Under the pieces are notes generated by a model, which was not told where the DNA came from, made no database searches, and saw nothing but the letters and a program-made list of their open reading frames with translations. This document shows positions 12,033-35,986 of a stretch of 35,986 nt of DNA, in pieces. Location: assembly GCA_945992255.1 (NCBI GenBank), contig CAMFVQ010000033.1:1-35986 (forward strand). The letters run 5' to 3'. The DNA comes from an uncultured Clostridia bacterium. Its GTDB lineage: Bacteria; Bacillota; Clostridia; Christensenellales; UBA3700. Each line of letters opens with the position of its first letter. Position 1 is the first letter of the stretch. Position numbers and translations under genes: made by a program.

Positions 12033-12049
12033 CAGAGAATAATTGTTAT

Positions 12050-13480: not shown

Positions 13481-13512
13481 AACGCCCTCCATAGCTAGCA
13501 TAATCTAAAATA

Positions 13513-14469: not shown

Positions 14470-14483
14470 CGGAGAGAAATGCT

Positions 14484-16149: not shown

Positions 16150-16153
16150 GCAT

Positions 16154-18709
16154 ATGATAAAGGTAGGAGAACGATTATTTAATAATTTGGATAGCAATGA
16201 ATATTTGCATAAACTATTCAGGAAAATTGCATATAACTATTCAAGTCTACTTGTTAATAGTACATTTGTTGTGTCGATTACAGAAAAAGAAAAAATTGAC
16301 GCATTAAGATTTGCTGATATTTTGTCTAAATGTACGATTGAAGCAAAAAAAGACTTATACTTTAATTGGGCGCAAAACATTGTAACTATGTTAAATACAG
16401 TTTATAAAAATGATGACCTTGTGAAATATTGTTTGGGTTCAGTATTAACCAATGTAAACAATTATTTTGGAGTAAGTCAAAATAGCCAAGGTTACATTAA
16501 TCAAGATATTGTAGAAGGAGTGAAAGAACTTGTAGAGCAAGAGGAATACAAAATTCCTTATGAAAATGCTGGCTATTTTATCAATAAGCAAAAGACAGCA
16601 TTTGATTTTTTGAAAAGAAACGATAGTTATAGTTTTTCTGCGCCTACATCATTAGGCAAAACATTCGTTATAAGGATGTTTATAAAAGAAATGATTTTAA
16701 AAGGTGAACGAGCTAATTTTGTTATAGTTGTTCCAACAAATGCACTTATTAATGAATTATATGAGAGATTTGTTGAAGATTTAAATGATAACTTGTGGAA
16801 TAGAAAGTATAAAGTTGTTAAATCGCCCGCTGCTATTATAGACGAAGAAGATTCCTATAATTTCATAATGATATACACGCAAGAAAGATTGTTGTATCAT
16901 TTACTACAGGTGAAAGATCTACCAATTAATTACTTATTTATAGATGAAGCACATAAAATAACTAAAGGTGAGGACCGAAGTGCTTTTTTCTATAAAGTTA
17001 TGTCGATAGTTAATAAAGAGCATAGTGGGGCAAGAGTATATTTTTCTAGCCCCAATATTCCAAACCCGCAAGTGTATTTGGAGTTAGTGAACGACAATCT
17101 AAATAGGGCATCAACAAGAATAAAGTATTCTCCTGTCAATCAAAGTAAAATTCTTATAGATCAAGATTCTGGGAAAGTTAGTTTTTATTCGGATATTGAT
17201 GAGAAGTTCTATGAGTTGGCAGAGAAGAATGATTTAATAGAAGAACGTGAACAAATTATCTCAATTGTTAAAAAGCTGGGAAAAAATAAGAGCAATATTG
17301 TTTTTTGTGAAAGCAAAAAAAATGCTGTCAATTGGGCAAAACAATATGCAGAGAATATGCCATATATTATAAATGAGGAACTCAACGAACTTATAGAAGA
17401 AATATCTGAAGATATACACGCTGACTGTTATTTAGCTGCAACATTAAAAAAAGGGGTGGCGTATCATGTTGCCTACATTCCATCGAGAATAAAGGAAAAA
17501 ATAGAACAACTATTTAAAAAGAATATAATAAAAACCGTATTTTGCACATCGACGTTATTGGAGGGTGTGAATTTTCCTGCGGAAAATTTGTTTTTAATGT
17601 TGGATGCGCGCTCCTATTGGCTCAAAGACGATAATCGAGTTGATTTCAAAAACTTAATTGGAAGAGTCGGTCGGATAGAATTTAATATGTTTGGGAACAT
17701 ATTTTTAATATCAAATACTGAGACGAATGAAAAATATATTAGAGCAATTGAGCGTGATATTGAAGATCAAAGACTTTCTGTAGATTATTATTTGTCGGAA
17801 AACAGAAAAAAAGAAATCGTAGATATGCTGGTACAAGGAAAAACTGTTATAGAAAAAAAGAACTCTGAAACGTATGAGCAATATAATTTTTCTAGGTATG
17901 TTTTAAATATACTCTTGAAAGATATTATTTGTGGACAACGAGGAAAGTTCTACAAGTTGTTTGAGAAATATTTAAACATAACTACTATTGAAGAAATAAA
18001 AAATCAATTTAAGAATAACTCGTATGTTCAAGACGATATAACAACAACACCTGATCAAATACAAACTGTTGACAATGAAATCAAAGTATCGCAAATTACT
18101 TATCCAGATAACATCACTTACAGAAATGTTTTATCGTTTTTGACGAAACTTTTCAGGCTATTTAATTGGAATAGATATGAAAGCAAAAAAGACATAGGAA
18201 AAGAATCTTGCTTAAAGTACTATTCAGTTATTTTGCAACAATGGATGCTTGGACTTGGAGTGAAACAAATTATAGAAGGAACAATAAAATTTCATCAAGA
18301 TAAGCGTGAAATTTTTATTGATGGGAAAAAGGTTCTTTATTTAGATAGTATCGAGCAGCGAAATTACTTGATTAATGACATTTTAGATACTTTGGAAAGA
18401 ATAATTCAATTTAAAATAAAAAATTATTTTTTGAAGTTTACTGAAAGAAAACTAACAAACGGTCAAGAACTTAAAGGGAATGATTGGTATGAATATGTTG
18501 AGTATGGAACGTGTAATAGGGTTGTTGTTTGTTTGCAAAAAATAGGTTTTACGAGAGAAAGTTCAATATATATATACTCTCAACATAAAGATAAAATCGT
18601 TGTTAAGGATAATAAAATAGTAACGATAAAAAATAGTCTCTTGAAATGCCCAAAGGTTTTTGAAGAGGCGCAAAGGGTAAAGTACAATTATCGAGATTTA
18701 TTTAATTAA
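16154..18709 (+). CDS. hamB: Hachiman system helicase HamB
   Basis: An 851-residue superfamily 2 helicase. Motif I is APTSLGKT (163-170), motif II DEAH (264-267), motif III region FSSP (about 298-300), motif V STLLEGVNFPA (466-476) and motif VI GRVGR (503-507), so both RecA lobes are complete. About 160 residues precede motif I and about 340 follow motif VI, as expected for HamB, which carries extra helical domains. Its position four bases after hamA, with AAGGA near the hamA stop codon, fixes the pairing. HamB is thought to patrol DNA and release the HamA nuclease on engaging single-stranded ends. A terminator follows at 18785, so this is the last gene of the cassette. Confidence 0.85.
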   Translation: MIKVGERLFNNLDSNEYLHKLFRKIAYNYSSLLVNSTFVVSITEKEKIDALRFADILSKCTIEAKKDLYFNWAQNIVTMLNTVYKNDDLVKYCLGSVLTNVNNYFGVSQNSQGYINQDIVEGVKELVEQEEYKIPYENAGYFINKQKTAFDFLKRNDSYSFSAPTSLGKTFVIRMFIKEMILKGERANFVIVVPTNALINELYERFVEDLNDNLWNRKYKVVKSPAAIIDEEDSYNFIMIYTQERLLYHLLQVKDLPINYLFIDEAHKITKGEDRSAFFYKVMSIVNKEHSGARVYFSSPNIPNPQVYLELVNDNLNRASTRIKYSPVNQSKILIDQDSGKVSFYSDIDEKFYELAEKNDLIEEREQIISIVKKLGKNKSNIVFCESKKNAVNWAKQYAENMPYIINEELNELIEEISEDIHADCYLAATLKKGVAYHVAYIPSRIKEKIEQLFKKNIIKTVFCTSTLLEGVNFPAENLFLMLDARSYWLKDDNRVDFKNLIGRVGRIEFNMFGNIFLISNTETNEKYIRAIERDIEDQRLSVDYYLSENRKKEIVDMLVQGKTVIEKKNSETYEQYNFSRYVLNILLKDIICGQRGKFYKLFEKYLNITTIEEIKNQFKNNSYVQDDITTTPDQIQTVDNEIKVSQITYPDNITYRNVLSFLTKLFRLFNWNRYESKKDIGKESCLKYYSVILQQWMLGLGVKQIIEGTIKFHQDKREIFIDGKKVLYLDSIEQRNYLINDILDTLERIIQFKIKNYFLKFTERKLTNGQELKGNDWYEYVEYGTCNRVVVCLQKIGFTRESSIYIYSQHKDKIVVKDNKIVTIKNSLLKCPKVFEEAQRVKYNYRDLFN

Positions 18710-21282: not shown

Positions 21283-22263
21283 TCAGAGCAAGAAAATATT
21301 CTTTTCTTTGCACTCTTCGACAAGCTCATCTGGCCAAATAGAATTCTGTACTTCACCGATATGAGCTTTGTGGAGCAGTACCATACAAAGTCTTGATTGA
21401 CCGATACCGCCGCCAATGGTGAGTGGCAATTCATCGGAGAGGAGTGCCTTGTGGAATGGTAGGTTGACTCTGTCCATAGCGTTCTTTTTTTCGAGTTGGT
21501 AGAGCATAACTTCTTTGTTGACCCTGATGCCCATAGAAGACAATTCGATAGAGCGGTTGAGCAATGGATACCACACAATCAAGTCGCCGTTGAGTGCCCA
21601 ATCATCATAGTCAGGCGCACGATTGTCGTGGCGTTTGCCTGAGCGGAGTTCATCGCCGATACCAATGATGAAGATTGCACCAAGTTGTTTGGCAAGCTCA
21701 TTTTCTCTTTGGCTTGGCTCGAGGTCAGGGTAAATATCTTCAAGTTCTTGAGATGTCACGAAAGTGAGTTGTTTTGGCAAAAAGTTCTCGATAGCATACA
21801 TACTTTCGATTATTTTGGCAGTGGAATAAATCGCACTATAAATTTTGCCAACGATTTCTTTGAGATAAGATATGTTGTGTTCTTCTTCACTGATGACACG
21901 CTCCCAGTCCCATTGGTCTACATAGATAGAGTGTATCTCATCGCATACTTCATCACGGCGGATTGCGTTCATATCGGTATAGAGTCCGCTGTCCACTCCA
22001 AAACCATAGTAGTGCAAAGCAAATCTCTTCCATTTGGCAAGAGAATGTACAACTTCTGCCACCTTGCCAGTTTGTTTGATATCAAAACTAACAGGACGCT
22101 CTACACCATTTAGGTTGTCATTTAGACCGCTGTCATTGAGTACAAAGAGCGGAGCTGACACACGAGTGAGGTTGAGATTGCCTGCCAAAAACTTCTCGAA
22201 GTTGTCTTTGATAGTCTTGATAGCTATTTCGGTTTGGATAAGGTTTAGCTTGGTTTGATACAT
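21283..22263 (-). CDS. asnA: Aspartate-ammonia ligase (asparagine synthetase A)
   Basis: A 326-residue AsnA, close to the 330 of the E. coli enzyme. It resembles class II aminoacyl-tRNA synthetases: the N-terminal YQTKLNLIQTEIAI, the central RRDE, DQWDWE and HSLAKWKR, and the C-terminal GGGIGQSRLCM signature (motif 3-like) are all present. It makes asparagine from aspartate, ATP and free ammonia, unlike the glutamine-using AsnB. ATG 22263 is chosen for AAAGGAG seven bases upstream; the open frame further back runs into purF. It lies 11 bases after the purF stop, so the two are cotranscribed. A dispersed repeat sits in its 3' untranslated region. Confidence 0.93.
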   Translation of the reverse strand: MYQTKLNLIQTEIAIKTIKDNFEKFLAGNLNLTRVSAPLFVLNDSGLNDNLNGVERPVSFDIKQTGKVAEVVHSLAKWKRFALHYYGFGVDSGLYTDMNAIRRDEVCDEIHSIYVDQWDWERVISEEEHNISYLKEIVGKIYSAIYSTAKIIESMYAIENFLPKQLTFVTSQELEDIYPDLEPSQRENELAKQLGAIFIIGIGDELRSGKRHDNRAPDYDDWALNGDLIVWYPLLNRSIELSSMGIRVNKEVMLYQLEKKNAMDRVNLPFHKALLSDELPLTIGGGIGQSRLCMVLLHKAHIGEVQNSIWPDELVEECKEKNIFLL

Positions 22264-22274
22264 AACGTTCTCCT

Positions 22275-23681
22275 TTATTTTTTGAATAAATCTGTGTCGA
22301 TAGTGTTGCAAATGTCGGTAGGATATTTGCCATCGAAACAAGCCTTGCAGAAGTGTGAAGTGCTGTCTGGGGCAATTTGGTCAATGCTGTCTAGCTTCAA
22401 AAATCCCAATGTATCTGCCCCGATATTTTGGCGGATTTCGTCCAATGTCCACTTGACTGCAGCCAAGCAAGATCTGTCAGGAATATCTGTGCCATAATAG
22501 CAAGGATACAAAAATTCTGGCGAGCTGATACGCACATGCACTTCGGTAGCGCCTGCTGTTTTGAGCAATTTTACGATGTTTTTGAGCGTTGTGCCACGCA
22601 CGATAGAGTCATCTATCATCACCACACGTTTGCCACGCACGTTGCTGTCGAGAGCGTTGAGCTTGAGGGCAACACTTCTCTCACGCATGGCTTGTGTTGG
22701 TTGGATAAATGTTCTGCCGATATATCTGTTCTTGATAAGTCCTGTGCCGTAAGGAATACCGCTTTGGATAGAGTAGCCGATTGCACTACAAAGTCCGCTG
22801 TCTGGTACACCAATAACAAGGTCAGCATCGACAGGGTATTGTTGGGCAAGCAACTTGCCGGCATTCATACGAGCTTCGTTGACACTTTGTCCATCGATAG
22901 TGCTGTCTGGGCGAGCAAAATATACATGCTCAAAAATGCATAGAGCAGACTTGTCACAGCAAAATTGGAGATCGGAGTGCATATCATCTTGGTCAACCAC
23001 CACGATTTCGCCCGGCTTGATATGTCTTTCAAACTTAGCACCAACAGTTTCGAGGGCGCAAGTCTCGCTTGCGAACAAGATGCTGTCATTGATTTTGCCC
23101 ATACAGAGCGGTCTGATGCCGAGTGGGTCACGCAAAGCAATGAGCTTGGTAGGTGACATTATGAGGAGAGAGAAAGAGCCTTTGAGCATAGGAATGACAT
23201 TGGCAACAGCCTCTTCAATATTTTTGCATTTTAGTCTTTCACGAGCGATAAGATAACAAATGATTTCGCTGTCGTTGTTGGAGTGGAAGATAGCGCCTTG
23301 GCTCTCTAGCTCTTTGCGAATGGCTTGAGCGTTGATGATATTGCCGTTGTGTGCAACAGTCAAATTGCCTTTGGCATAGTTGACAGTGATTGGTTGGGCA
23401 TTCTCAACCCCTTTGAATGGACCAGAGCTGTATCTTACGTGACCTATGGCAATCTCGCCTTCCAAGTCGCCCAAATTCTTGTGTTTGAACACATCGCTTA
23501 CCAGTCCCAATCCTTTGATGAGATTGATTTCACGATTGTGATTGATTGCTATGCCTGCTGCCTCTTGACCACGATGTTGGAGAGCGAACAATCCATAGTA
23601 AACTGTGCTAGCTATATTGCCAAGTTTGGACTTGTCATATATACCAAAAATGCCACATTCTTCTTTTAGTATCTCACTCAT
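22275..23681 (-). CDS. purF: Amidophosphoribosyltransferase
   Basis: A 468-residue PurF. The short propeptide MSEILKEE precedes Cys9, which becomes the N-terminal nucleophile of the Ntn glutaminase domain (CGIFGIY, HRGQEAAGI, NGNIINA, all intact). The C-terminal PRTase domain has the PRPP loop VVMIDDSIVRGTT. Cysteines consistent with the Bacillus-type Fe-S cluster occur (CIFEHVYF, SCLAAVK and FCKAC). It makes phosphoribosylamine from PRPP and glutamine, the first step of purine synthesis. GGAGG six bases before ATG 23681 fixes the start. asnA follows. No other pur genes are here and no purine riboswitch is visible. Confidence 0.95.
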   Translation of the reverse strand: MSEILKEECGIFGIYDKSKLGNIASTVYYGLFALQHRGQEAAGIAINHNREINLIKGLGLVSDVFKHKNLGDLEGEIAIGHVRYSSGPFKGVENAQPITVNYAKGNLTVAHNGNIINAQAIRKELESQGAIFHSNNDSEIICYLIARERLKCKNIEEAVANVIPMLKGSFSLLIMSPTKLIALRDPLGIRPLCMGKINDSILFASETCALETVGAKFERHIKPGEIVVVDQDDMHSDLQFCCDKSALCIFEHVYFARPDSTIDGQSVNEARMNAGKLLAQQYPVDADLVIGVPDSGLCSAIGYSIQSGIPYGTGLIKNRYIGRTFIQPTQAMRERSVALKLNALDSNVRGKRVVMIDDSIVRGTTLKNIVKLLKTAGATEVHVRISSPEFLYPCYYGTDIPDRSCLAAVKWTLDEIRQNIGADTLGFLKLDSIDQIAPDSTSHFCKACFDGKYPTDICNTIDTDLFKK

Positions 23682-23712
23682 ACGAGTCCTCCGAAACAAA
23701 AAAACTAATTTA

Positions 23713-23969: not shown

Positions 23970-25031
23970 ATGGACAAAATTTATTTGGTACTTCAGAATG
24001 GACAAGTCTATGAGGGACAAAGCTTTGGCGCCAAAGCCGAAGTGGTAGGTGAGCTTGTTTTCAACACAGGTATGTGCGGATTTTTGCAAATGCTCACAGA
24101 CAAATGTTATCAAGGACAAATCGTTGTAGACACATTCCCTATGTTGGGTAACTATGGTGTCAACGATGATGCCAAGGACAAACAAAGTGCAGTCAAAGCT
24201 GTGCTTACAAGAGAAGTGTGCGACACTCCTTCCAACTTCCGCAGCAAGGGCAAAATCACAGACCTTATGGCTGATATGGGAGTGGTGGGTATGAGTGGAA
24301 TCGACACTCGTGCGCTCACTCGTTATATCCGTGACAATGGGGCTCAAAAGGCAATTATTTGCTCCAATCCAAACCTAACCGATGCCCAAAAGAAAGCACT
24401 CGAAGAGTATGAGGTCGTAAGACCAATCTCTGAAGTTTGTGCAAACCAAAGCGAGCAAGTGGTAGGCAAGGGAAGCAAGGTGACTCTCATCAACCTAGGC
24501 GAAACCTATGACATTGCCGAAATGTTGGCAAGCAAAGGTTGCGAGGTGACAGTTGTGACTTACAACACCAGTGCAAAAGATATTTTGGAAACCAAACCAC
24601 AAGGCGTTGTGTTGTCTAGCGGTTCGGACTTTGTGAGTGACACAGCCGTGGTAGAAAACACTATCAAAGAGCTTGCAAAAGCAGATGTAAGTATGCTCGG
24701 CATTGGGCTTGGGCACGCGCTACTTGCCAAGGCTATGGGTTGTGCTGTGGAAAAGACTTTGCACGGTCAACACGGCAACCAACCAGTCAAAAAACTCGAT
24801 ACAGGTCGCCTATTTACCACATACCAAAATCACAATATGAACGTTGTGGCTGAGGATAGCGATGATATCCGAGTGGTATATCGCAATGTCAACGACGGCT
24901 CTGTCGAAGGACTTTGTTACAATGCTATCAAGTCAATGGGCGTAGCATTCTTGCCAAGTACCAATGGCGGTCCAAATGCAACTGATTTTGTATACGATGA
25001 ATTTTTAGAACTTACAAAGGAGAATAGATAA
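23970..25031 (+). CDS. carA: Carbamoyl-phosphate synthase small subunit lacking the glutaminase triad
   Basis: A 353-residue CarA. The N-terminal half is normal (NTGMCG, GNYGVND, GIDTRALTRYIRD). The class I amidotransferase half keeps the fold but not the chemistry: the nucleophile Cys of GICLGHQ is Gly246 (GIGLGHA), the HPE that carries catalytic His and Glu is LPS (328-330), and the oxyanion-side GPGDP is replaced by GSDF. All three changes are plain codon substitutions in an open frame, not frameshifts. Glutamine hydrolysis should be impossible, so the complex probably uses free ammonia, as vertebrate CPS I does after losing its Cys. ATG 23970 follows GAGG by five bases. It overlaps carB by one base (TAATG). 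Confidence 0.9.
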   Translation: MDKIYLVLQNGQVYEGQSFGAKAEVVGELVFNTGMCGFLQMLTDKCYQGQIVVDTFPMLGNYGVNDDAKDKQSAVKAVLTREVCDTPSNFRSKGKITDLMADMGVVGMSGIDTRALTRYIRDNGAQKAIICSNPNLTDAQKKALEEYEVVRPISEVCANQSEQVVGKGSKVTLINLGETYDIAEMLASKGCEVTVVTYNTSAKDILETKPQGVVLSSGSDFVSDTAVVENTIKELAKADVSMLGIGLGHALLAKAMGCAVEKTLHGQHGNQPVKKLDTGRLFTTYQNHNMNVVAEDSDDIRVVYRNVNDGSVEGLCYNAIKSMGVAFLPSTNGGPNATDFVYDEFLELTKENR

Positions 25032-28000
25032 TGCCACTCAACAAAGATTTACACAAAGTTATGGTTATTGGCTCTGGTCCTATCATCATTGGACAAGCTG
25101 CCGAATTTGACTATGCAGGAACACAAGCGTGCAGAGCGCTCAAAGAAGACAATCTAGAAGTTGTTTTGGTCAACTCCAACCCTGCAACAATTATGACAGA
25201 CAATGCAGTAGCTGACAGAATTTATATCGAGCCACTCACATTGCCAACAATCAAAAGAATTATCGAAAAAGAGCGTCCAGACAGCTTGCTCTCGACACTT
25301 GGCGGACAGACAGGTCTTACCCTCAGTATGCAACTTGCCAAAGAAGGTTTCCTTGACAAAATGGGCGTAAAGCTTTTGGGTGCTGACCCTGAGGCTATCG
25401 ACAAGGCAGAGGACAGACAAAGCTTTAAAGACACTTTGGCAGAAATCAACGAGCCTGTTATTCCATCAGAGGTTGTGAACACAATGGACGACGGAATTAG
25501 AGTGGCAAGCGAAATTGGCTATCCAGTTATCATTCGCCCTGCATTTACTTTGGGCGGTACTGGTGGCGGTATTGCTCACAATCAAGAAGAATTCGAGGAT
25601 ATTGCCGAGAACGGACTTAGACTTAGTCCAATCCACCAAATCCTTGTAGAAAAATGTATCAGCGGTTGGAAAGAAATCGAGTTCGAAGTTATCCGTGACA
25701 GCAAGGGCAACTGTATCACCGTTTGCAGTATGGAAAACCTCGACCCAGTCGGCGTACACACAGGCGACAGTATCGTAGTTGCTCCAACTGTTACACTTGC
25801 CAATGCAGAATTCCAAATGCTCAGAAGCTCAGCTCTCAAAATCGTAAATGCTCTCGAAGTTGAGGGTGGTTGCAATGTTCAATTCGCTTTGCACCCAGAC
25901 AGCTTTGAATATGCAGTTATCGAAGTAAACCCAAGAGTTAGCCGTAGCTCAGCACTTGCGAGCAAAGCGACAGGCTATCCAATCGCCAAGGTTGCTACCA
26001 AGATTGCAATTGGCTATACACTCGACGAAATCAAGAATGCAGTCACTGGTTGCACCTATGCTTGCAACGAGCCAAGCATCGACTATATCGTTATCAAATT
26101 CCCTAAGTGGCCATTCGACAAATTCTTCTATGCAAGCAGAAAACTTGGCACTCAAATGAAAGCGACTGGCGAAGTTATGTCAATCGGTACAAGTTTCGAG
26201 CAAGCTATTATGAAAGCTGTGCGTGGTGCAGAAATCTCTATGACCACTTTGTACAACAAGAAGATTGCCAAAATGGACGATATGGAGCTAGAAGAAAAGA
26301 TGATGACTTGCGACGACGAAAGACTTTTCGTAATCTATGAACTTCTTCGCCGTGGCGTGACAGTCAACGAAATCCATACCAAGACTCGTATCGACAGATG
26401 GTTCTTGAACAAGCTTGTCAACCTCATTGAAATGGAAAAGAAATTGGCTGAGGGCAATGTAACCAAAGAGACATATCTCCAAGCTAAGAATATGGGCTTC
26501 CTCGACAGCTCAATCGAAGAAATCAGCGGCGAAAAAGTCAAAGAGCCTGTCTTTGCATCATACAAAATGGTTGACACTTGTGCAGCAGAGTTTTCGGCAC
26601 AAACTCCTTACTTCTATTCGACCTATGACAGCGAGAACGAGGCAAGAGAATTTATCGACAACCATAACAGCGGCAAAAAGAAAGTTATCGTATTCGGCTC
26701 AGGTCCTATCCGTATTGGTCAAGGTGTAGAATTCGACTATGCTTCCGTGCATTGTGTATGGGCTTTGAAGAGAAAGGGTTATGAAGTAGTCATTGTCAAC
26801 AACAACCCAGAGACAGTATCTACTGACTTTGACACAGCAGACAGACTTTACTTCGAGCCACTTACCAACGAAGACGTTATGAATATCATTCACACCGAAC
26901 AACCTTACGGCGTAGTAGTTGCGTTTGGTGGTCAAACAGCTATCAAGCTCACCAAGTTGTTCCGCCAAAAGAATATCCGTATCCTCGGCACCCAAGCTGA
27001 GTATATCGATATGGCAGAGGACAGAGAGCTATTCGACGAGTTGCTCGAAAGACTTAATATCAAACGCCCTGAGGGCTATACAATTATGACCAAAGAAGAG
27101 GCTTTGGAAGTGGCAAACAAGATTGGTTATCCAACACTTCTCAGACCTTCTTACGTGCTCGGTGGTCAAAATATGTGCGTATGTCACTCAGATGCCGACG
27201 TCATCGAATATATGGACGTAATCTTGTCCCAAAAGATTGAGAATCCAGTGCTTATCGACAAGTATTTGATGGGTAGAGAAATCGAAATCGATGCAATCTG
27301 TGATGGCAAGGAAATCTTGATTCCGGGCGTTATGCAACATATCGAAAGAACGGGTGTTCACTCAGGTGACTCAATCGCCGTTTATCCATCTTGGAATCTT
27401 AGCGATGAAATGCTTGACCGCATTGTAGAATGCTCGAAACAACTTGCTATCAACTTGCACACAATCGGTTTGGTAAATATCCAATATTTGATTTATGAAG
27501 AAGAGCTTTATGTCATCGAAGTAAACCCACGTAGCTCTCGTACAATTCCTTATATCAGCAAGGTAACAGGCGTGCCAATGGTTGATTTGGCTACAAGATG
27601 TATCTTGGGCGAAAAGCTTGCAGATATGGGTTATGGCACAGGACTATATCCAAAGTCCAACTATGTGGCAGTCAAAGTTCCGGTATTCTCATTCGCAAAG
27701 CTTGTCAATGTAGATACCCAACTCGGACCAGAAATGAAGTCAACAGGTGAGGTACTTGGACTTGCAAGCACTTTGGAAGAGGCTTTGTTCAAGGGACTTG
27801 TTGCAGCAGGCTACAAGATGAAGAAAAAGGGCGGTATCTTTATCACCGTGCGTGACCAAGACAAGAGCGAAATCGGCGAGATTGCCCAAAAGTTTGAAGA
27901 CCTTGGCTACACTTTGTATGCTACCAAGGGTACGGCAAGAGTGCTAAGAGATAGAGGACTCGAGTGTATCACAGTGGACAAAATTCACCAAAATCTCGAA

Positions 28001-29077
28001 CACAACAACTTGACACTTATCGAGAGCGGAAAGATTGACTACATTATATCCACTTCATCTAAGGGTAAGCTCCCTACACGTGACAGCGTGAAAATAAGAA
28101 GAAAAGCAGTAGAGAGATCAATTCCTTGTCTTACATCTATCGATACAGCCAATGCAGTTGCCAATTGCTTGATGAGCAGATACAGCGAATTCAACACAGA
28201 GCTTGTAGATATCAACAGACTTCGCAAATCTAAGCAAACTCACAAGTTCATCAAAATGCACAGCGCAGGCAATGATAGAATATTCTTTGATTGTATGGAC
28301 GGCAACCTCATCGACAACCCAGAGGGCGTGGCAGTGAGAATGTCTGACAGACACTTTGGTGTGGGAGCTGAGGGCATTATCATCATCGAAAAATCTGATA
28401 TTGCAGATGCAAAGATGAGCATTTACAATTGTGACGGCTCTAAGGGTAAAGTGTGCGGAAACGGCTTGTTCGGTGTGGCTAAATATTTGTACGACAACCA
28501 CCTTGTCAACAAGTACGACATCACTATCGAAACTCCAACAGGTGTCAAAGATATCACAATCAAGACCCAAGACGGCGTGGCAACATATCTCAATGTAAAT
28601 ATGGGTATGCCAATCCTCAAACCTAGCCAAATCCCTGTCAAGATTGCTGGCAAAAACGCAATCGGTGTGCCACATTCAGTGTTGGGCAAAGAATATATCT
28701 TCAACATTGTATCAATGGGCGAGCCACATACAGTTTTGTTCACCGACCACCTAGACAATGTTGATATATCCGAGCTTGGCGCACAAATCGAGTATGACAG
28801 CATATTCCCAGAACGCAGCAACGTAGAGTTTGCCAAAGTTATGGATGACCACACAATCAAAGTTCGCACTTGGAGCAAAGGTTGTGGCGAAACATTCGCA
28901 AGCGGCAGTGGTTCTTGTGCAGCAGTGGTGAGTGCAGTTCTCAACGGCTACTTGAAGAAGAATGTGGATATCGATGTCAAACAACGTGGCGGAGATATGG
29001 TAGTAAGATATACCGATGAGGGAGTAATTCTCAAAGGCACTTCAGCTATCGTATTCTCAGGCGAAATTCAATTCTAA
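25031..29077 (+). CDS. carB: Carbamoyl-phosphate synthase large subunit fused to a DapF-like domain
   Basis: A 1348-residue fusion. Residues 1 to about 1065 are a complete CarB: first ATP-grasp half (GSGPIIIGQAAEFDYAG, GGTGGGIA, EVNPRVSRSSALASK), second half (GSGPIRIGQGVEFDYA, EVNPRSSRTIP) and the MGS allosteric domain (about 930-1065). Residues about 1071-1348 form a diaminopimelate-epimerase-like domain (MHSAGND, VCGNG, GCGETFASGSGSC). Its first active-site Cys is kept (Cys1142), but the second is Ser1291, the GNPH asparagine is Glu and the conserved Glu-Arg before GxGET is Ser-Lys, so racemisation of DAP looks unlikely. No stop or ribosome binding site separates the parts. AAAGGAG overlapping the carA end serves translation. 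A regulatory or structural role for the extra domain is inference. Confidence 0.92.
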   Translation: MPLNKDLHKVMVIGSGPIIIGQAAEFDYAGTQACRALKEDNLEVVLVNSNPATIMTDNAVADRIYIEPLTLPTIKRIIEKERPDSLLSTLGGQTGLTLSMQLAKEGFLDKMGVKLLGADPEAIDKAEDRQSFKDTLAEINEPVIPSEVVNTMDDGIRVASEIGYPVIIRPAFTLGGTGGGIAHNQEEFEDIAENGLRLSPIHQILVEKCISGWKEIEFEVIRDSKGNCITVCSMENLDPVGVHTGDSIVVAPTVTLANAEFQMLRSSALKIVNALEVEGGCNVQFALHPDSFEYAVIEVNPRVSRSSALASKATGYPIAKVATKIAIGYTLDEIKNAVTGCTYACNEPSIDYIVIKFPKWPFDKFFYASRKLGTQMKATGEVMSIGTSFEQAIMKAVRGAEISMTTLYNKKIAKMDDMELEEKMMTCDDERLFVIYELLRRGVTVNEIHTKTRIDRWFLNKLVNLIEMEKKLAEGNVTKETYLQAKNMGFLDSSIEEISGEKVKEPVFASYKMVDTCAAEFSAQTPYFYSTYDSENEAREFIDNHNSGKKKVIVFGSGPIRIGQGVEFDYASVHCVWALKRKGYEVVIVNNNPETVSTDFDTADRLYFEPLTNEDVMNIIHTEQPYGVVVAFGGQTAIKLTKLFRQKNIRILGTQAEYIDMAEDRELFDELLERLNIKRPEGYTIMTKEEALEVANKIGYPTLLRPSYVLGGQNMCVCHSDADVIEYMDVILSQKIENPVLIDKYLMGREIEIDAICDGKEILIPGVMQHIERTGVHSGDSIAVYPSWNLSDEMLDRIVECSKQLAINLHTIGLVNIQYLIYEEELYVIEVNPRSSRTIPYISKVTGVPMVDLATRCILGEKLADMGYGTGLYPKSNYVAVKVPVFSFAKLVNVDTQLGPEMKSTGEVLGLASTLEEALFKGLVAAGYKMKKKGGIFITVRDQDKSEIGEIAQKFEDLGYTLYATKGTARVLRDRGLECITVDKIHQNLEHNNLTLIESGKIDYIISTSSKGKLPTRDSVKIRRKAVERSIPCLTSIDTANAVANCLMSRYSEFNTELVDINRLRKSKQTHKFIKMHSAGNDRIFFDCMDGNLIDNPEGVAVRMSDRHFGVGAEGIIIIEKSDIADAKMSIYNCDGSKGKVCGNGLFGVAKYLYDNHLVNKYDITIETPTGVKDITIKTQDGVATYLNVNMGMPILKPSQIPVKIAGKNAIGVPHSVLGKEYIFNIVSMGEPHTVLFTDHLDNVDISELGAQIEYDSIFPERSNVEFAKVMDDHTIKVRTWSKGCGETFASGSGSCAAVVSAVLNGYLKKNVDIDVKQRGGDMVVRYTDEGVILKGTSAIVFSGEIQF

Positions 29078-29095
29078 AAAAAACTAAAACAAACA

Positions 29096-29127
29096 AAAGG
29101 ACTTCCTGCAAAGGGAGTCTTTTTTTT
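29096..29127 (+). terminator. carAB operon terminator
   Basis: GACTTCC (29100-29106) pairs with GGGAGTC (29113-29119) with a T-G wobble, extended by A and T tracts, followed by eight T. Confidence 0.8.
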
Positions 29128-29136
29128 GCGGAAAAA

Positions 29137-29168
29137 TGCAAAATGTCGATATGTATCGAGTTTTTGCA
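29137..29168 (+). repeat. Dispersed palindromic repeat, copy 5 (most complete)
   Basis: TGCAAAA (29137-29143) and TTTTGCA (29162-29168) form outer arms around TCGATA (29146-29151), TG and TATCGA (29154-29159). This is the fullest dyad of the five copies and lies 10 bases after the carAB terminator. Confidence 0.75.
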
Positions 29169-29413
29169 AGTTTTTGGCTTGCAGGGTGATAGGAAATGAT
29201 GAAAAGATTGGGCATTTGCCAATAAAAACTCTTGCCAAAATGTATGATATATAGACAGCAAAATCAAAGTAAAAGAAAAAATACTGAAACATTTTTTGCC
29301 GAATAGCAACACTTAAAATGCCCAAAAGTTCAAAAAAGTTCAAAAATCTTTGGGGGAAAGTTTTGATTTTTGCGGATTTTGGTGGGTGATAATGTAAAAT
29401 TATATTCCAAACA
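29169..29413. other. AT-rich spacer
   Basis: No reading frame with a ribosome binding site is seen. A short GCAAG...CTTGC hairpin lies near 29166-29182, and AAAAGTTCAAAA-type direct repeats occur near 29325-29350. Nothing else can be supported before the promoter at 29414. Confidence 0.4.
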
Positions 29414-29442
29414 TTGAATAAGTAAAATTTTTTTGTTATAAT
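29414..29442 (+). promoter_or_regulatory. Promoter of the giant membrane-anchored protein gene
   Basis: TTGAAT (29414-29419), a 17-base spacer and TATAAT (29437-29442), 28 bases before ATG 29471. Confidence 0.7.
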
Positions 29443-29470
29443 TAAATATATAGAGAGTAGGGGGTGGATT

Positions 29471-32400
29471 ATGTCAAAAAAAGATAAATACGATTTTCTT
29501 GATGACAATGCTCCAAAGAAAAATAAGAAAAAGAAGAAAAGACATGGTTGTCTAAATTGTTTGATAACCTGTCTTGTTTTGCTTGTTATATTTTGTGGTG
29601 CAATAGTCGGCGGTGGCTATTGGGCATGGGGTAAATATGCCGAACCACAGGTAGGACTTACATTTGGAGAAGTATTCAAAGTTTTGTGCGGATTGTACAA
29701 GGCAGATGAGGGTAAGATTGTGACCAATCCTTATTCGCAGGCTGACCTTGATACTTTTTATACCGACTTCAAAGCAAAGACTTATATGCAAGCCGACACG
29801 CAGCTGACCATTGCGGACATTTTGGATTCGACTGTCGGTAAAAAATCAAATAATGATGAGTCCAACGGCTCTTCCGAGCCACCAACTTCTACTGGCAACT
29901 CTGCGCTCGACGGCTTGCTCGACAAAATCAATTTTGATTTTACTCCACTTGCCAACTACAAGGGCGAAGACAACATTATGGAGATCACCGACAAGCAGTT
30001 TGCGTCTATTCTCAACGAGGCGTTGACTTATTTTGCCAACAAATATGCGACAAGTGGACAAAACACGGTGGCGACAGTTGCCGAAGAAAATGTAGGCGAA
30101 CCGCTGCCAAAAGATGATACAACCCCAGCTCCTAGCGAGGGAAACAACCCAACTAACAACATAGAGCAATATGCAAAATATATGAAATATATCGACATTT
30201 GCCAAGTGACAATCGACAGCCCATCGGCTGCCAAGCTTGAAGATGTGTCAATGTCGCTCGTGTTGAAAATCAGCACAAGAGAACTTGTCAAAGAGCTTGT
30301 TGGACAAAGCAAAGTGCCAGCATTTTTGTTCAATCTTTTGCCAAAGCAAACTTTCGCAGGAATGAGAGTATATCCAAACAGCAACAATGCCAATGCAGGT
30401 ATTATTCTCAACCAAATCGACAAAGACCTTATGACCAAGGTTGCGGGAGCTATCGACAAAATATCGGGAGCGGAAACCTCTATCATGCAAACAATCAATA
30501 CGACTGTCAACAATGTGGTGACCAAACTCAACGAAAAACTCCCAATCAGCTTTATTCAATCAGGTTGCAATATCAAACCTGTCCAAGGAATGATGAATGT
30601 CCTCAACATCTCACTAGGCGAAGCCCAATTCTTGGCGATGATAAGAGATATCAAGCTTCCTACCGCTGAGAGCATGGGCGTGGCAGGTTATACCCAAGAA
30701 TTGCGTACCCAAGCAGTGCAAACTTTTATTGGAGAGTTCGCAGGTAAATATGCTTTCGACAACATGGGCGTAGACGGCAATCCTATCATCACACCTGACA
30801 ATGTTTTCCAACAAGTTGGCAGTATGATGCAAGATGAAAATATGCTCAGCAGAATAAACCTTGCGACACTTGACTATGACAGCACGGCTTACAACAAAGA
30901 TACACACAAAGTAAATATGACTTATATGGCTTTGGCAGGGCTACTCAACTCAGAACTCAAAAAGCCAATTATCTCTGTCCAACCAGACGGCACAGAGGTT
31001 GCCAAAGACCCATTGCCAATCACCATTTTGACAATGGAATATGACCAATCGACTCAAATGCTTGGCGTGGTGTTGTCTTTCGATGTCGGCAAATTGTTGG
31101 GACTAGATAGTCAAGAAAATACCAATCAACTTTTCAACAAACTTGTATCGCAGATTTTGCCAAAAGAGATAATCATCAAAGCACAAGTGCCACTTGCGAA
31201 CAATGGACAAAACACAATTATCAAAATCAACAATCTCAACGAGCAAGACTCAGCAGACTTGCTCCAAAATATTACAACACTTGGCACCGATCTTGGCATC
31301 AATATGTCCCAATTCAATATCCAAGAACTCACCGACACTTTGGAGAAGGCTGTCAAAGATAACCTTGACAAAATCAACAAACAAATCGGTGCAGAGATTA
31401 AGTTTGGTGCAGACAAGTGCTTGTTGCCATCTATCTTTGAGGTGGTGGCAGGGCTTGACATGCTAAAAACCGACAATGTGGCAGTAGTCACTGACGAAGA
31501 GCTTCACGATATGTTGCGCAGTGCATACACTTATACGGCAGGCACTCCAAACAAAGCCGACAACGCACTTGCCCTTGTGGGACAAATCGAAAGCAAATAT
31601 TATATCAACGAAGGCGTGCTAAATGGAAGTGACGGCAATGCTTTGCTCAATTCTATCAAGGCTATCAAAGACAACTTCCAAGATGATTTCGACGTGCCAA
31701 GAATGGCAGCGGACACCACTCCACTAGACCAACTCAAACCTATTATAAGTCAAGAAGAGCTTGGCTTTATCTTGCAGTCCAGTGGCAAGCTTGATGACAT
31801 TGTAAGTATCATCGACAAAATCAACATTGTCAGTACAAATATCACCACGGCGGAGATGAAAATGCAAATCGAGGGGGAGATTGCCCTCACAGGCGAAAAT
31901 GCAAAATACTCAGTGCTTTTACCAAAGAAGATATATCTTAACTTGACCGTGGACACCGCTCTATTGATGAGAAGAGTAAATGGCGAAGATGTTGTTTGTA
32001 CCAGTTTTGACATAGACGGAATGAATGCCGAACAAATGACCAACTTCTTTGAAGTAGCCAGCAAATTGGGCGGACAACCACTCAACCAAACAGAGATATG
32101 CAATACTTTGGACACCAAGATAGCTGCCGTGTTGACAGAACTCATCAATGGCGGCAATATGGAACTTGTATTCGTAGAGGGCGGTATCAAGCTCGACAAG
32201 ACCGTGTTTGATATTGCCGCTGACCAAATCTACACCAACCCAGCAACCACCAAGCCAAGTGCCAGCGAGCTTAGACAAGTACTCCAAAAAGTCAATATCA
32301 TACCGGAAGAATACAAGACGAACAACTTGTCACAAGATTTGACCGCTGTGGTAGGGGAAATCAACACCAAGTATTATCTCAACACTCCACTTGAGAAAAA

Positions 32401-33823
32401 CAACACAATTTATGACCAAATCAGTGCTATCAGTGGCAACTATCTCAATATTATCAATGGTAAAACAATGAATGATGAGTATGACAAAAAGACATTGCCA
32501 GAGCTAAGACCTAACATAAGTGGTGGTGAGCTTGGAAGAATTTTCTCCACTCAAGTAGCAATCGGCGGAGCGGGCAAAGGACTTGACAATGCAGAAATGA
32601 CCTCACTTAAAGTTGTATCCGACACAAGCATGGAGATTGTATTTACTGCCAAGATTGCTGTCGAGGAAACCAACAAATACAAAAAATTGTTGCCAAATGC
32701 GGTATCAATCGTGGTAGACTTCGACAAGTCATTGACCAATGACACAACCAAGCCTTGCACAACGTTTACTATCAATGATATGACAACCGAGGACATAAAG
32801 GTATTTACAGGACTTGTCCAAGCAGTGGACAGCACCGCCAACCTAGATATTGATGAACTCAACAAGAGTGCATCTGACCAGCTCAAAGAAAAAATCAAAG
32901 CCCTATCAGGTGAGAGCGAAATCACACTTTCGCCAGCGGATATTGACGGCAATAGAGTAGGCGGTACAATCACCATGTCCAGCATATTCGGACTTGCTCT
33001 CAACAAGATTTATGAAGGCGAAACAACCAAGCCAACCGAGGAAGTCTTGCGAGAAACATTGCACGCATTGTGGACACCAGTCAATGTTGTGGGACAAAGC
33101 GAATTTACGGTTGCTGATGAGATGAAAGAGGGACAAATAAAAATCACTCCATTGTCACTCACACCTCCAATAAAAGGCAAAGTTGAAATCGAAGTGACTG
33201 ACCGCAATATTGGCGCAATCTTGCAAAATAAAGAAAATGAGGGTAAGGGAATAGCTGAGTCGCTTGGCATTACAGACACGTCTGCCGTGACTTACAAACA
33301 AGCGCTTATGTTCTCTCCAACTTATGAGAATAGACAAGCGGTAATAGATGCACTCCACGGAATGACATTCCAAAACAATTCGTATATGATGATAGGAGTC
33401 AATATCAAAACAAGCGCACTCATAACGAGCAGTATGTTACCAGACAACATTGATGTGACAGCTCTACTTGATATTGATACGGCAGGCTATCCGTTCGAGT
33501 TGATGATCAACAATCTAAATGGTGACCAAAAAGCAATCATCAACAAGATTTTGACCAAGAATAGTGGCAACGCAAGTATCTTTGATGAAACCTCCAAAGA
33601 CAACTTGAAGAACAACATTCTAAACACAGAAGTATGCAAAATCAGTGCAGTTGGAGGAGTGAGCTTGCCAACGCCATTCATATTCAGCTTGAGAGATTTG
33701 TTGGGCAAGATAGAGAAAAAAGACGATCACAGTGTGCGTCATACAAGAGATACAAGCACCCTTATACCAGAAGGTACTCCATTCGGTGGATATATCCGAG
33801 TGAGCGACACGGTAGGAGTATAA
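29471..33823 (+). CDS. Giant single-pass membrane protein with five repeated modules
   Basis: A 1450-residue protein. A Lys-rich cytoplasmic head (residues 1-25, with a run of lysines at 16-24) is followed by one membrane helix (about 29-52), leaving about 1400 residues outside the cell. The outer part holds five modules about 250-270 residues apart, each marked by [LIM]LP[KND] near residues 288, 561, 814, 1072 and 1320, followed by an I-N/D-x-L/M-N/D motif (INNLN, IDGMN, INDMT, INNLN; the first copy is weaker). Modules 3 and 4 also share KYYxN and ELRPxIS-like upstream segments. A Pro/Thr/Ser-rich linker lies near 130-145. There is no sortase motif, signal-peptidase site or catalytic signature. 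A surface scaffold or a lipid-binding repeat protein are possible; I do not recognise the family. GGGGGTGG precedes the ATG. Confidence 0.8.
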   Translation: MSKKDKYDFLDDNAPKKNKKKKKRHGCLNCLITCLVLLVIFCGAIVGGGYWAWGKYAEPQVGLTFGEVFKVLCGLYKADEGKIVTNPYSQADLDTFYTDFKAKTYMQADTQLTIADILDSTVGKKSNNDESNGSSEPPTSTGNSALDGLLDKINFDFTPLANYKGEDNIMEITDKQFASILNEALTYFANKYATSGQNTVATVAEENVGEPLPKDDTTPAPSEGNNPTNNIEQYAKYMKYIDICQVTIDSPSAAKLEDVSMSLVLKISTRELVKELVGQSKVPAFLFNLLPKQTFAGMRVYPNSNNANAGIILNQIDKDLMTKVAGAIDKISGAETSIMQTINTTVNNVVTKLNEKLPISFIQSGCNIKPVQGMMNVLNISLGEAQFLAMIRDIKLPTAESMGVAGYTQELRTQAVQTFIGEFAGKYAFDNMGVDGNPIITPDNVFQQVGSMMQDENMLSRINLATLDYDSTAYNKDTHKVNMTYMALAGLLNSELKKPIISVQPDGTEVAKDPLPITILTMEYDQSTQMLGVVLSFDVGKLLGLDSQENTNQLFNKLVSQILPKEIIIKAQVPLANNGQNTIIKINNLNEQDSADLLQNITTLGTDLGINMSQFNIQELTDTLEKAVKDNLDKINKQIGAEIKFGADKCLLPSIFEVVAGLDMLKTDNVAVVTDEELHDMLRSAYTYTAGTPNKADNALALVGQIESKYYINEGVLNGSDGNALLNSIKAIKDNFQDDFDVPRMAADTTPLDQLKPIISQEELGFILQSSGKLDDIVSIIDKINIVSTNITTAEMKMQIEGEIALTGENAKYSVLLPKKIYLNLTVDTALLMRRVNGEDVVCTSFDIDGMNAEQMTNFFEVASKLGGQPLNQTEICNTLDTKIAAVLTELINGGNMELVFVEGGIKLDKTVFDIAADQIYTNPATTKPSASELRQVLQKVNIIPEEYKTNNLSQDLTAVVGEINTKYYLNTPLEKNNTIYDQISAISGNYLNIINGKTMNDEYDKKTLPELRPNISGGELGRIFSTQVAIGGAGKGLDNAEMTSLKVVSDTSMEIVFTAKIAVEETNKYKKLLPNAVSIVVDFDKSLTNDTTKPCTTFTINDMTTEDIKVFTGLVQAVDSTANLDIDELNKSASDQLKEKIKALSGESEITLSPADIDGNRVGGTITMSSIFGLALNKIYEGETTKPTEEVLRETLHALWTPVNVVGQSEFTVADEMKEGQIKITPLSLTPPIKGKVEIEVTDRNIGAILQNKENEGKGIAESLGITDTSAVTYKQALMFSPTYENRQAVIDALHGMTFQNNSYMMIGVNIKTSALITSSMLPDNIDVTALLDIDTAGYPFELMINNLNGDQKAIINKILTKNSGNASIFDETSKDNLKNNILNTEVCKISAVGGVSLPTPFIFSLRDLLGKIEKKDDHSVRHTRDTSTLIPEGTPFGGYIRVSDTVGV

Positions 33824-33831
33824 CACAAAAT

Positions 33832-33860
33832 AAACGACCCCACAGTGGGTCGTTTTTTTT
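33832..33860 (+). terminator. Terminator
   Basis: AAACGACCC (33832-33840) pairs with GGGTCGTTT (33847-33855), followed by further T residues to 33860. It ends the giant-protein transcript. Confidence 0.9.
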
Positions 33861-33913: not shown

Positions 33914-33943
33914 TTGACTTGTATTGTATTATAATGTTATAAT
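33914..33943 (+). promoter_or_regulatory. Promoter of the alpha-galactosidase gene
   Basis: TTGACT (33914-33919), an 18-base spacer and TATAAT (33938-33943). The ATG at 33924 falls inside this promoter, so translation must begin later, at GTG 33969. Confidence 0.65.
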
Positions 33944-33968
33944 TATAAATAAAAGTAAAGGTGAACTT

Positions 33969-35621
33969 GTGGAATACAAACTAAGAATTACATACGAACA
34001 AGATGACAATATATTGATTACCAACAAGCCCAACAAGCATTTGGATATCCAAGTCGGCAGTGAAGACGGCAGACTTAGTATGGTGCTGACGGCTCGTGAG
34101 GATATATCACTTTTGGAGTGTTTTGTGAGTTTCGAGCATTCGTTCGAGGAGCAAGACAAGATTTTTTGCAATGGTTACCAGTCTTGGACAGCCAGTCGAG
34201 AATATGGCGTACACGACAAAGAAAAAGGCTTGGTAGGACTAGGCAGATATTTTCCATTCAACGAATTTACTTCGCTTTTTGGCGACTATACTTTTTACAA
34301 ATATACCAACATTTCAGGCAAATTCCATGGCTACACTTACGGCTACACTCGCCGTGGTGACAATGTGCTTTTGGTTGGCTCGGTGAGCGAAAAGCAAGGC
34401 TTTACTATCATCAGTTTCGAGCCTTACCGAAATCGTATCAAATTGGCTCGAGGTGTCGAGGGCATTTCTTTGAAAGCAGGCGAGAGCTTTGTGGGCATAG
34501 ATGCTGTATGTTATGAGGGCGGATATGATGAGGTGTTCGACAGATATTTTGCCACGATGAACATTCCTAAGCCAAAGCTTGCCAACTTGTGCGGATATAC
34601 CAGTTGGTACAACTATTTTGGCAAAATCGACAGCGAGATTTTGGAGAGAGATTTGGAGAGCTTGTCAGTCTATGGCGACAAGGTAAATATTTTCCAAATA
34701 GATGATGGTTACCAGTCCAAAGTGGGCGATTGGCTCTCTGTCAAGCAAGACAAGTTCCCACAAGGAATGAAGTACCTCGCCGACAAAATCCACGCCAAAG
34801 GATATTTGGCAGGGTTGTGGCTTGCTCCAACGCTTGCCCAAAAGGACAGCGAGATTGTCCGCAATCACCCAGATTGGCTCATCACCAAACCAAACGGCAA
34901 GCCAATGCTCGGCAATGTGGGTTGGGGCGGAGCTTATATCTTGGACACAGAGCTACCAGCTGTGAGAGAATATCTAAGACAAGTTTTTTCGACTATTCTC
35001 GATGATTGGGGCTTTGATATGGTCAAACTTGACTTTTTGTACAGTGCATGCCTTGTGCCTCGTGGCGGTAAGAGCCGTGGGCAAATCATGTGCGAAACTA
35101 TGGAATTTTTGCGAGAGTGTGTGGGCGACAAGCTCATACTTGGTTGCGGAGTGCCACTTGGAGCTAGCTTTGGGTTGGTGGATATGTGCCGTACAGGTTG
35201 TGACGTAGACTTGACCTATCACGCTAAATTGTACAACCGCCACACCAATCAAGAGGTTGTCAGCACGCACAATTCGCTCAAAAATACACTATTCCGCAGA
35301 CATCTCAATGGCAGAGCGTTCGTCAACGACCCAGATGTTTTCTTTGCTCGCAACTCCAACTTGAAGTTTTCTGTGGAACAAAAACAAATCCTTGCCAAGG
35401 TCAACAGCTTGTGTGGGGGAGTGTTGTTCGTGTCCGACAATGTGGCAGAATACGACCAACAAGGCAAAGAGATTTTCGCAGGTGCTATTCAGCCTAAGTC
35501 TACCAAAATCATCAGTGTGGACAAGGATATGGACAATGTGCGTATACAATATACCATTGATGAGAGCCCGCACGAGTTCGAGTTCTGTATGAAGAAAGGA
35601 AAAATTTTGAAAGACAACTGA
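33969..35621 (+). CDS. Alpha-galactosidase, glycoside hydrolase family 36
   Basis: A 550-residue GH36/clan D enzyme. An N-terminal beta-sandwich precedes a TIM barrel with the family landmarks CGYTSWYNYF, IDDGYQ, GLWLAP, the nucleophile Asp355 in VKLDFLY, and the acid/base Asp412 in RTGCDVDL. It hydrolyses alpha-1,6-galactosides such as melibiose or raffinose, or related alpha-glycosides. There is no signal peptide, so it acts in the cytoplasm on imported sugars. GTG 33969 with AAGGTG five bases upstream is chosen because the promoter covers earlier starts. It is shorter than the 700-residue GH36 forms. The P-type ATPase gene begins two bases after its stop codon, so they are cotranscribed. 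No sugar regulator or transporter is in view. Confidence 0.88.
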   Translation: MEYKLRITYEQDDNILITNKPNKHLDIQVGSEDGRLSMVLTAREDISLLECFVSFEHSFEEQDKIFCNGYQSWTASREYGVHDKEKGLVGLGRYFPFNEFTSLFGDYTFYKYTNISGKFHGYTYGYTRRGDNVLLVGSVSEKQGFTIISFEPYRNRIKLARGVEGISLKAGESFVGIDAVCYEGGYDEVFDRYFATMNIPKPKLANLCGYTSWYNYFGKIDSEILERDLESLSVYGDKVNIFQIDDGYQSKVGDWLSVKQDKFPQGMKYLADKIHAKGYLAGLWLAPTLAQKDSEIVRNHPDWLITKPNGKPMLGNVGWGGAYILDTELPAVREYLRQVFSTILDDWGFDMVKLDFLYSACLVPRGGKSRGQIMCETMEFLRECVGDKLILGCGVPLGASFGLVDMCRTGCDVDLTYHAKLYNRHTNQEVVSTHNSLKNTLFRRHLNGRAFVNDPDVFFARNSNLKFSVEQKQILAKVNSLCGGVLFVSDNVAEYDQQGKEIFAGAIQPKSTKIISVDKDMDNVRIQYTIDESPHEFEFCMKKGKILKDN

Positions 35622-35623: not shown

Positions 35624-35986
35624 ATGAACGAAAAGATATACAATCGACTCCAAAAGTTTTTGGGCAAGAAAAAAGACAGCCAAAAACTCAAAAAAGCAGA
35701 AAGATTTTCCCCTAGCGTATTGGAGGGGTTGACTCGTGAGCAAGTCGAGTCGAGAAAAGAAGACCATTTGACCAACCAACGCATAGGCAAAGAGAGCAAG
35801 TCCTACTTCAAAATTGTTGTGGACAACTTGTTCAACTTTTGCAATATGGTGTGCATTGCTTTGGTAATATTGCTGTGTAGCATAGGGGCGTGGGATTATA
35901 CATTGTCTACCAGCATAGTTTTCGTCAACGGTGAATTATACTATCAAGTGCAACACCCAATAAAAAAAGTTAGTTCATACAAAATC
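35624..35986 (+). pseudogene. N-terminal part of a cation-transporting P-type ATPase, cut at the window end
   Basis: The frame opens at ATG 35624 and runs off the window. After a basic head, SPSVLEGLTREQVESRK and KSYFKIVVDNLFNF match the actuator-side N-terminus of HAD P-type ATPases (the GLT..EVE.R and SKSY..I..DN.F patterns), followed by the first membrane helix (NMVCIALVILLCSIG) and the start of the second. Similarity stops after IVFVN (about 35929), where GIxQE-type sequence is expected; the remaining 57 bases are unlike the family although the frame stays open. I therefore read the gene as interrupted by an inserted element. If the last bases are an assembly edge artefact, the gene may be intact. 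Ion specificity is unknown. Confidence 0.55.
35929..35986. mobile_element. Possible end of an insertion sequence (partial)
   Basis: From about 35929 the sequence changes character. On the minus strand it includes TTGGGTGTTGCACTTG and TATAATTCACC, which resembles the terminal regions of IS30-like elements. Only one end is visible, no transposase can be read and no target duplication can be tested, so the family is a guess. Confidence 0.3.

Follow-up and report, generated by a model that had tools for sequence, protein, structure and literature searches.

A membrane-anchored clostridial protein of five homologous modules with a predicted TULIP-like fold

The window analyzed here, a 35,986-nucleotide stretch of contig CAMFVQ010000033.1 from an uncultured Clostridia bacterium (assembly GCA_945992255.1), carries on its forward strand an open reading frame (ORF) at 29471–33823 that begins with ATG and encodes a protein of 1450 residues. 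The gene occurs once in its own genome (1.48 Mb, 62 contigs). Profile comparisons and structure models indicate that the protein consists of one N-terminal membrane anchor followed by five homologous modules, each of which probably adopts the TULIP fold. For the complete picture, an anchored, wall-spanning lipid handler with five TULIPs working in series, we put the chances at about even.

Homology among the modules was seen most clearly with profiles. An initial profile self-comparison gave neighbor offsets mostly of 250–290 residues, with probabilities up to 99.7. All 10 module pairs reached profile-profile probabilities of 93.0–99.5, while nine unrelated flanking families stayed at or below 1.2 (range 0.1–1.2). 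With a profile set made of 10 co-linear relatives, 8 of the 10 pairs scored 66.9–99.1, the low ones being modules 1 and 4 (11.9) and modules 4 and 5 (41.6); with the window protein and its sister species only, the pair of modules 3 and 4 alone stood (97.2). Among single sequences, modules 3 and 4 were again the only clear pair (phmmer E 1.6e-14), followed by modules 1 and 2 (E 0.0013). Self-BLAST of the protein gave no off-diagonal match and gave none in 30 shuffles either, and so decides nothing. Profiles were also trained by position on the first, second, third and last modules of 38, 38, 31 and 38 other proteins, respectively, leaving out the window protein and its sister and taking the best of 1000 shuffled segments as threshold. 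These found the window’s other modules in 2, 3, 4 and 4 of 4 cases (13/16 in total), and each of the five modules was reached at least once. Module 5 from the first-module profile and module 1 from the last-module profile passed narrowly; the failures were modules 3 and 4 from the first-module profile and module 5 from the second-module profile. By these comparisons the modules are homologous, and the repeat is real but old, because most of the homology is visible only with profiles and single sequences link only modules 3 and 4 clearly.

The sole hydrophobic segment of the protein spans residues 26–46 (mean Kyte-Doolittle value 2.6), and no 19-residue window exceeds 1.6 outside the anchor region. 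Because the lysine-rich first 26 residues contain 11 K/R and 4 D/E, the positive-inside rule predicts an N-in/C-out topology; the remainder, residues 53–1450, is acidic (183 D/E vs 120 K/R). Each module bears an LP landmark (P291, P564, P818, P1075 and P1324; spacing 273, 254, 257 and 249) and an IN-like landmark (N314, N587, D849, N1102 and N1347). In module alignment A6, which takes in 107 of 179 modules, the P and N columns are kept in at least 90% of the modules, and the residues are otherwise highly variable, with a mean column identity of 9%. An earlier sequence-only reading of the window had described a single anchor, 1450 residues and five recurring modules of about 250–270 residues with LPK-like and INxLN-like landmarks; hydropathy and profiles confirmed the anchor and five modules spaced about 250–275 residues apart. 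Its statement that no known domain is apparent and that the family is unknown was right by sequence: searches of Pfam, NCBIfam, PHROGs, PADLOC and the PDB with the window protein gave no significant match.

Two AlphaFold2 models were made, of residues 60–1215 (the first model) and residues 1190–1450 (the module 5 model), from family alignments of 32 and 34 rows, respectively. The first has a mean predicted local distance difference test score (pLDDT) of 78.6, with modules 3 and 4 mostly at 80–93; the second has a pLDDT of 91.0 and a predicted template modeling score (pTM) of 0.88. DSSP assignments of the models are alike in the five modules: a core of helix, four strands and helix, with a strand before it and one or two strands after. 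Modules 1, 3, 4 and 5 have one strand before the core and two after, and in module 2 a single strand after was called. Short extra helices interrupt the core order, module 2 also has two extra short strands, and module 1, modeled with lower confidence, has a short fourth core strand. In module 3, strand 758–760 precedes helix 761–770, strands 781–791, 795–804, 820–828 and 844–848, helices 853–867 and 873–895, and strands 899–902 and 905–908, with short helices at 809–816 and 829–836; in module 4 these two short helices are absent and the order is otherwise unchanged. In module 5, strand 1235–1243 is followed by helix 1244–1256, strands 1273–1281, 1305–1313, 1326–1334 and 1342–1346, helices 1351–1365 and 1373–1384, and strands 1387–1394 and 1397–1406, with short helices in between. 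Core strand 3 comes just after the LP landmark, and core strand 4 has the IN landmark at its end. The TULIP core has been described as an antiparallel, rolled-up six-element meander of helix, four strands and helix (PMC5507252, PMC6791001), to which bacterial TULIPs add one strand before and two after (PMC6791001). The order predicted for the modules fits this core together with the bacterial extra strands.

Structural alignment with VIA-align pointed in the same direction. Going by protein names, which we take to identify TULIPs, such proteins fill 14 of the first 16 rows for the first model, a count in which SPLUNC1 appears four times and mite allergen three times. The top rows are Mdm12 (Z 7.1, root-mean-square deviation (rmsd) 4.7, 129 residues aligned), YceB (3l6i; Z 6.8, rmsd 3.8, 124 aligned) and BPIFA1 (Z 6.8, rmsd 5.7, 139 aligned), with further rows for LBP, SPLUNC1, CETP, BPI and mite group 7 allergen. 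For the module 5 model, TULIPs occupy all of the first eight rows and comprise three kinds of protein: mite allergen (Z 5.9, rmsd 4.1, 112 aligned), SPLUNC1/BPIFA1 and Mdm12. In addition, the 19 core strands alternate between hydrophobic and polar residues (3.59 vs 2.01 in shuffles, standard deviation 0.29; 0/5000), although 5 of the 19 hardly alternate and the pattern is common in sheets. The comparison with TULIP, AsmA-like and adhesin folds that the sequence-only reading had proposed thus favors TULIP, and the outcome it had named as adverse, unrelated folds in the five segments, was not seen: the element order is the same in all five, with low confidence for module 1.

The modules appear to form a family separate from the named ones. 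DUF2140 (PF09911, to which YpmS presumably belongs) was considered and, as a family, rejected: there was no Pfam match, and a DUF2140 profile built from 33 sequences at 36 loci gave probabilities of 0.1–2.6 against the five modules, of which 2.6 is noise because an unrelated control reached 16.5. PF09911 exceeded its cut-off in 0/59 relatives, and the genome of one of them had a weak match at another place. LmeA/DUF2993 (PF11209) was rejected likewise, with no Pfam match and a profile probability of 0.1–0.4. As a positive control, LmeA and DUF2140 matched each other with a probability of 92.9 by the same method, in agreement with the link reported by Levine (PMC6791001). Since neither DUF2140 nor LmeA matches the modules while those two match each other, sequence profiles and models together suggest a family with a TULIP-like fold outside them. 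DUF4403 and YceB/DUF1439 gave no Pfam match to the window protein at E ≤ 1. A Pfam scan of 32 relatives returned 39 scattered weak names, the commonest in 4/32 and the best at E 0.00049 (FliG_C, one member); with no shared theme, these were dismissed as chance.

Of 149 genomes searched, 53 gave a homologue, among them 44 of the 46 genomes of the same taxonomic family; the two without one are incomplete (86 and 83%). Within the order, a module profile matched 65 of 297 genomes, and in a phylum sample of 398 genomes only the window’s own matched, the other 397 giving none; by these searches, matches are confined to one order among the genomes sampled. A public contig search with the window protein alone gave no match, and one with alignment A4 gave 24 loci, labeled as uncultured Clostridia, Clostridiales, Christensenellaceae, Christensenella and Candidatus Ornithoclostridium. 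Forty relatives (32 of them held in alignment A1 and 34 in A5) have 2 to 7 modules per protein and lengths of 787 to 2254 residues, counts that are partly by construction because most of those modules trained the profile. Four further genomes carry single-module forms (module profile E 1.4e-10 to 1.6e-7), ORFs of 281–331 residues with an N-terminal hydrophobic helix, which match module 2 of the window protein with a profile probability of 96.1 and the other modules with 25.5–59.2. The multi-module arrays may descend from such forms. For a family that is nearly general in its taxonomic family and unnamed in the libraries searched, the present results propose a fold and a possible role.

Among known systems, DUF2140 proteins are the closest in layout: they have an N-terminal membrane helix, a TULIP domain outside the membrane and monoderm hosts in the Bacilli (PMC6791001). 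The single-module relatives share that layout, and indirect indications (one transmembrane helix, positive-inside charge, no Omp85) place the window protein in it as well; DUF2140 proteins differ in having one module, against up to seven here, and in the missing profile match. LmeA is likewise a TULIP of the bacterial envelope and binds phospholipids (PMC7643837), but combines one TULIP with a Chorein-N-like part (PMC6791001). OrfX2, OrfX3 and P47 resemble the present protein in bearing several TULIP-like domains on one clostridial chain, and P47 (Z 4.4) and OrfX2 (Z 4.0) are in the structural list of the first model. OrfX2 has three TULIPs, one in OrfX2-N and two in OrfX2-C (PMC13030710, PMC12845932). 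In this group, however, two TULIPs flank a central sheet, and the available text of these sources describes no membrane anchor (PMC13030710, PMC12845932); the PDB searches also gave no match by sequence, and the present family consists of near-equal modules, five here and up to seven elsewhere. The solved TULIPs that the module models match best, YceB (3l6i), BPI/LBP/CETP, SPLUNC1 and Mdm12, have one or two TULIPs per chain and no detectable sequence similarity. With the repeating beta-groove (RBG) bridge-like lipid transfer proteins (AsmA/TamB, VPS13) the present protein shares a long serial build, which could carry lipid far, and one membrane anchor. Unlike them, the present modules alternate helices and strands in the models with no repeating beta-groove, have no AsmA, TamB or Chorein match in Pfam, and occur in hosts with no sign of a second membrane.

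The hosts bear on what such a protein could connect. Omp85 was found in none of 49 draft genomes (the window’s own and 48 relatives), in a search that matched in 7 of 14 control genomes, which makes a second, outer membrane unlikely by gene content. The sequence-only reading had suggested a surface scaffold or a bridge across the envelope; the results support an anchored protein that is modular and faces outward, and a bridge between two membranes is rejected on the Omp85 result. We propose the following plausible arrangement. The N-terminal helix would hold the protein in the cytoplasmic membrane, and the five tandem TULIP-like domains would reach outward into the wall. Each module is predicted to be a curved four-stranded sheet with helices at both core ends and, as we infer from the fold, may bind a lipid or other hydrophobic molecule. 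More speculatively, the modules could span the wall and act in series, passing a ligand through its thickness, outward or inward. A BPI or CETP pair measures 13 nm, an E-Syt2 pair less than 10 nm (PMC5507252). By analogy, a row of five modules, which are shorter, might extend over some 20–30 nm. This is about the thickness of a monoderm wall and suggests a serial route through the wall for lipids or lipid-linked precursors. The most ambitious form of the proposal is a serial TULIP conduit of 1–7 units, whose length module duplication would have fitted to the wall width. In monoderm gut bacteria it would carry lipids or lipid-linked precursors from the membrane to the outer face of the wall or back, a counterpart, convergent and built from a different fold, of bridge-like proteins; this we consider unlikely as a complete account. 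The TULIP chains described in the sources cited contain one, two or, in OrfX2, three TULIPs (PMC6791001, PMC5507252, PMC13030710, PMC12845932), and among the matches listed in the open-licence literature no chain with more than three appeared, OrfX2 being the highest. Serial action of several domains is described as an open question, with no evidence for TULIPs (PMC5507252, section 4.7); a natural series in related bacteria, with 1 to 7 units per chain, would allow a direct test.

Several observations weigh against an anchored series of TULIPs. The pTM of the first model is 0.54, leaving the placement of the modules relative to one another uncertain. Foldseek returned no match at E ≤ 0.001 for either model, its top rows not being TULIPs, and none at that threshold among viral structures. 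All VIA-align Z values lie below 8 (maximum 7.1 for the first model and 5.9 for module 5), a range that may reflect merely a common arrangement. Aha1 rows (Z 6.1 and 6.0) stand among the TULIP rows, CapZ (Z 4.7) comes directly after them in the module 5 list, and the LBP, CETP and BPI rows have an rmsd of 17.7–27.5 because they span two modules. No sequence profile links the modules to DUF2140 or LmeA. Regarding gene context, which was counted at 39 loci including the window (L055 left out; flanks examined for 39 of 52 other matching genomes), the commonest neighbor is a PfkB-like kinase downstream of the gene (23/39), which is not lipid-related, and the window itself has neither PlsY nor an esterase next to the gene. 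The low Z values, the empty Foldseek search and the Aha1, CapZ and NTF2-like rows could mean that the modules have an unrelated alpha/beta fold whose four-stranded sheet is curved, similar to Aha1, NTF2 or the like. This is quite improbable, given that TULIPs head the lists of both models, which cover different parts of the protein, and that each of the five modules also has the extra strands, one ahead of the core and one or two behind it.

If the fold is granted, its use may still be another. The chain could be a structural spacer or adhesin of TULIP-like shape, displaying a binding surface or linking membrane and wall and holding no ligand. A module number that varies from 1 to 7, as in length-tuned stalks, the great variability of the residues across the 107 aligned modules and the lack of an evident enzyme or substrate partner in the window would all suit such a role; but the last module is of the same kind as the others rather than a distinct tip domain, Pfam and NCBIfam scans of the window protein gave no known adhesin or wall-binding domain, and both the conservation at LP and IN and the amphipathic strands agree with a shared core, so that we hold this account to be unlikely on balance. 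A scavenger or buffer also appears rather unlikely. Its modules would bind hydrophobic compounds independently of one another, so as to take them up or detoxify them, with host or dietary lipids of the gut as one example. Levine proposed environmental lipid capture or detoxification for monoderm TULIPs (PMC6791001), and the relatives being metagenome-assembled genomes labeled Christensenellaceae, Christensenella, Clostridia and Candidatus Ornithoclostridium, with no Omp85 in the genomes searched, is consistent with that role. Against it, no importer of hydrophobic compounds was recognized beside the gene; what lies nearby is the start of a cation-ATPase gene and, at 7 loci, genes read as Trk-like potassium uptake (not domain-scanned).

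The lipid-related gene context of the relatives provides partial hints for lipid handling by the anchored modules. PlsY lies directly upstream of the family gene at 3/39 loci, all three confirmed by Pfam, and an SGNH/GDSL esterase lies divergently upstream at 13/39 (domain confirmed in one example), with a small ORF in between at L043. In a recent survey, an SGNH lipase neighbors TULIP-bearing ClaspCone-1 genes (PMC12419801). The PfkB-like kinase was domain-confirmed in one example, and L050 and L056 may have one too, under an antisense ORF. Operon logic for the family gene is weak overall. At five loci from another family of the order (L061, L063, L065, L067 and L069), dnaA comes directly after the multi-TULIP gene and is in most of them accompanied downstream by dnaN and recF; domains were confirmed in L063 only.

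Features of the gene and protein are collected in Table 1. Promoter-like sites in the scanned region 29050–29500 numbered 3 (mean 1.5 in shuffles), weak evidence by itself, and no terminator-like site was found there. The downstream terminator scan gave 2 sites, one stem on both strands, vs a mean of 0.1 in shuffles. The gene is followed by a melibiase-like gene (33924–35621) and the cation-ATPase start (35624–35986).

Table 1. Coordinates of the five-module gene, its signals and protein segments in the window, and of single-module relatives
Feature	Position	Strand	Basis
ORF of the five-module protein	29471..33823	+	1450 residues
Sigma-70-like promoter (TTGAAT, 17 nt, TATAAT, TG before it)	29414..29442	+	10/12 match
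G-rich stretch resembling a ribosome-binding site ahead of ATG	29460..29467	+	direct reading of the sequence
Predicted single transmembrane anchor, residues 26–46, behind lysine-rich, putatively cytoplasmic tail	29546..29608	+	hydropathy
Membrane-proximal conserved segment, residues 62–140	29654..29890	+	family alignment A3
Module 1, residues 161–390 (lowest model confidence)	29951..30640	+	profile-profile, AlphaFold2
Module 2, residues 469–682	30875..31516	+	profile-profile, AlphaFold2
Module 3, residues 745–934	31703..32272	+	profile-profile, AlphaFold2, structural alignment
Module 4, residues 1004–1197	32480..33061	+	profile-profile, AlphaFold2, structural alignment
Module 5, residues 1228–1407	33152..33691	+	profile-profile, AlphaFold2, structural alignment
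Intrinsic terminator, 9 bp stem and T run	33832..33855	+	terminator scan
Single-module anchored relatives	L151:428-1423, L152:7327-8277, L153:6802-7647, L154:7381-8226		module profile match

Upstream, after a gap of 393 bases, lies an ORF of 1348 residues (25031–29077, +) in which CarB is in frame with diaminopimelate epimerase (DapF). No report of such a fusion appeared among the matches listed in the literature; the sister species (L031) has an ORF of the same length upstream of its homologue that is related to the CarB-DapF ORF (not domain-scanned). Elsewhere in the window, an asnA ORF and an amidophosphoribosyltransferase-like ORF (21283–23699, −) lie on the same strand and share 67 bases, an overlap that may not be real because both have mechanical TTG starts. 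A transposase with an integrase core, which we read as IS3-like, adjoins an ATPase_2/DUF234 protein matching the PDC-S27 candidate defense model (10770–13501, −), and an AlwI-type restriction enzyme adjoins a methyltransferase ORF with a helix-turn-helix domain and two methyltransferase stretches (2343–6115, −). A Hachiman-type HamA and HamB defense pair (PADLOC E 4.5e-66 and 7.6e-253) occupies 15226–18709 (+), preceded at 13855–15158 (+) by two small ORFs, one with a weak oligonucleotide-cyclase-like match (E 3.6e-07) and the other encoding an Abi_2/PDC-M34B-like protein.

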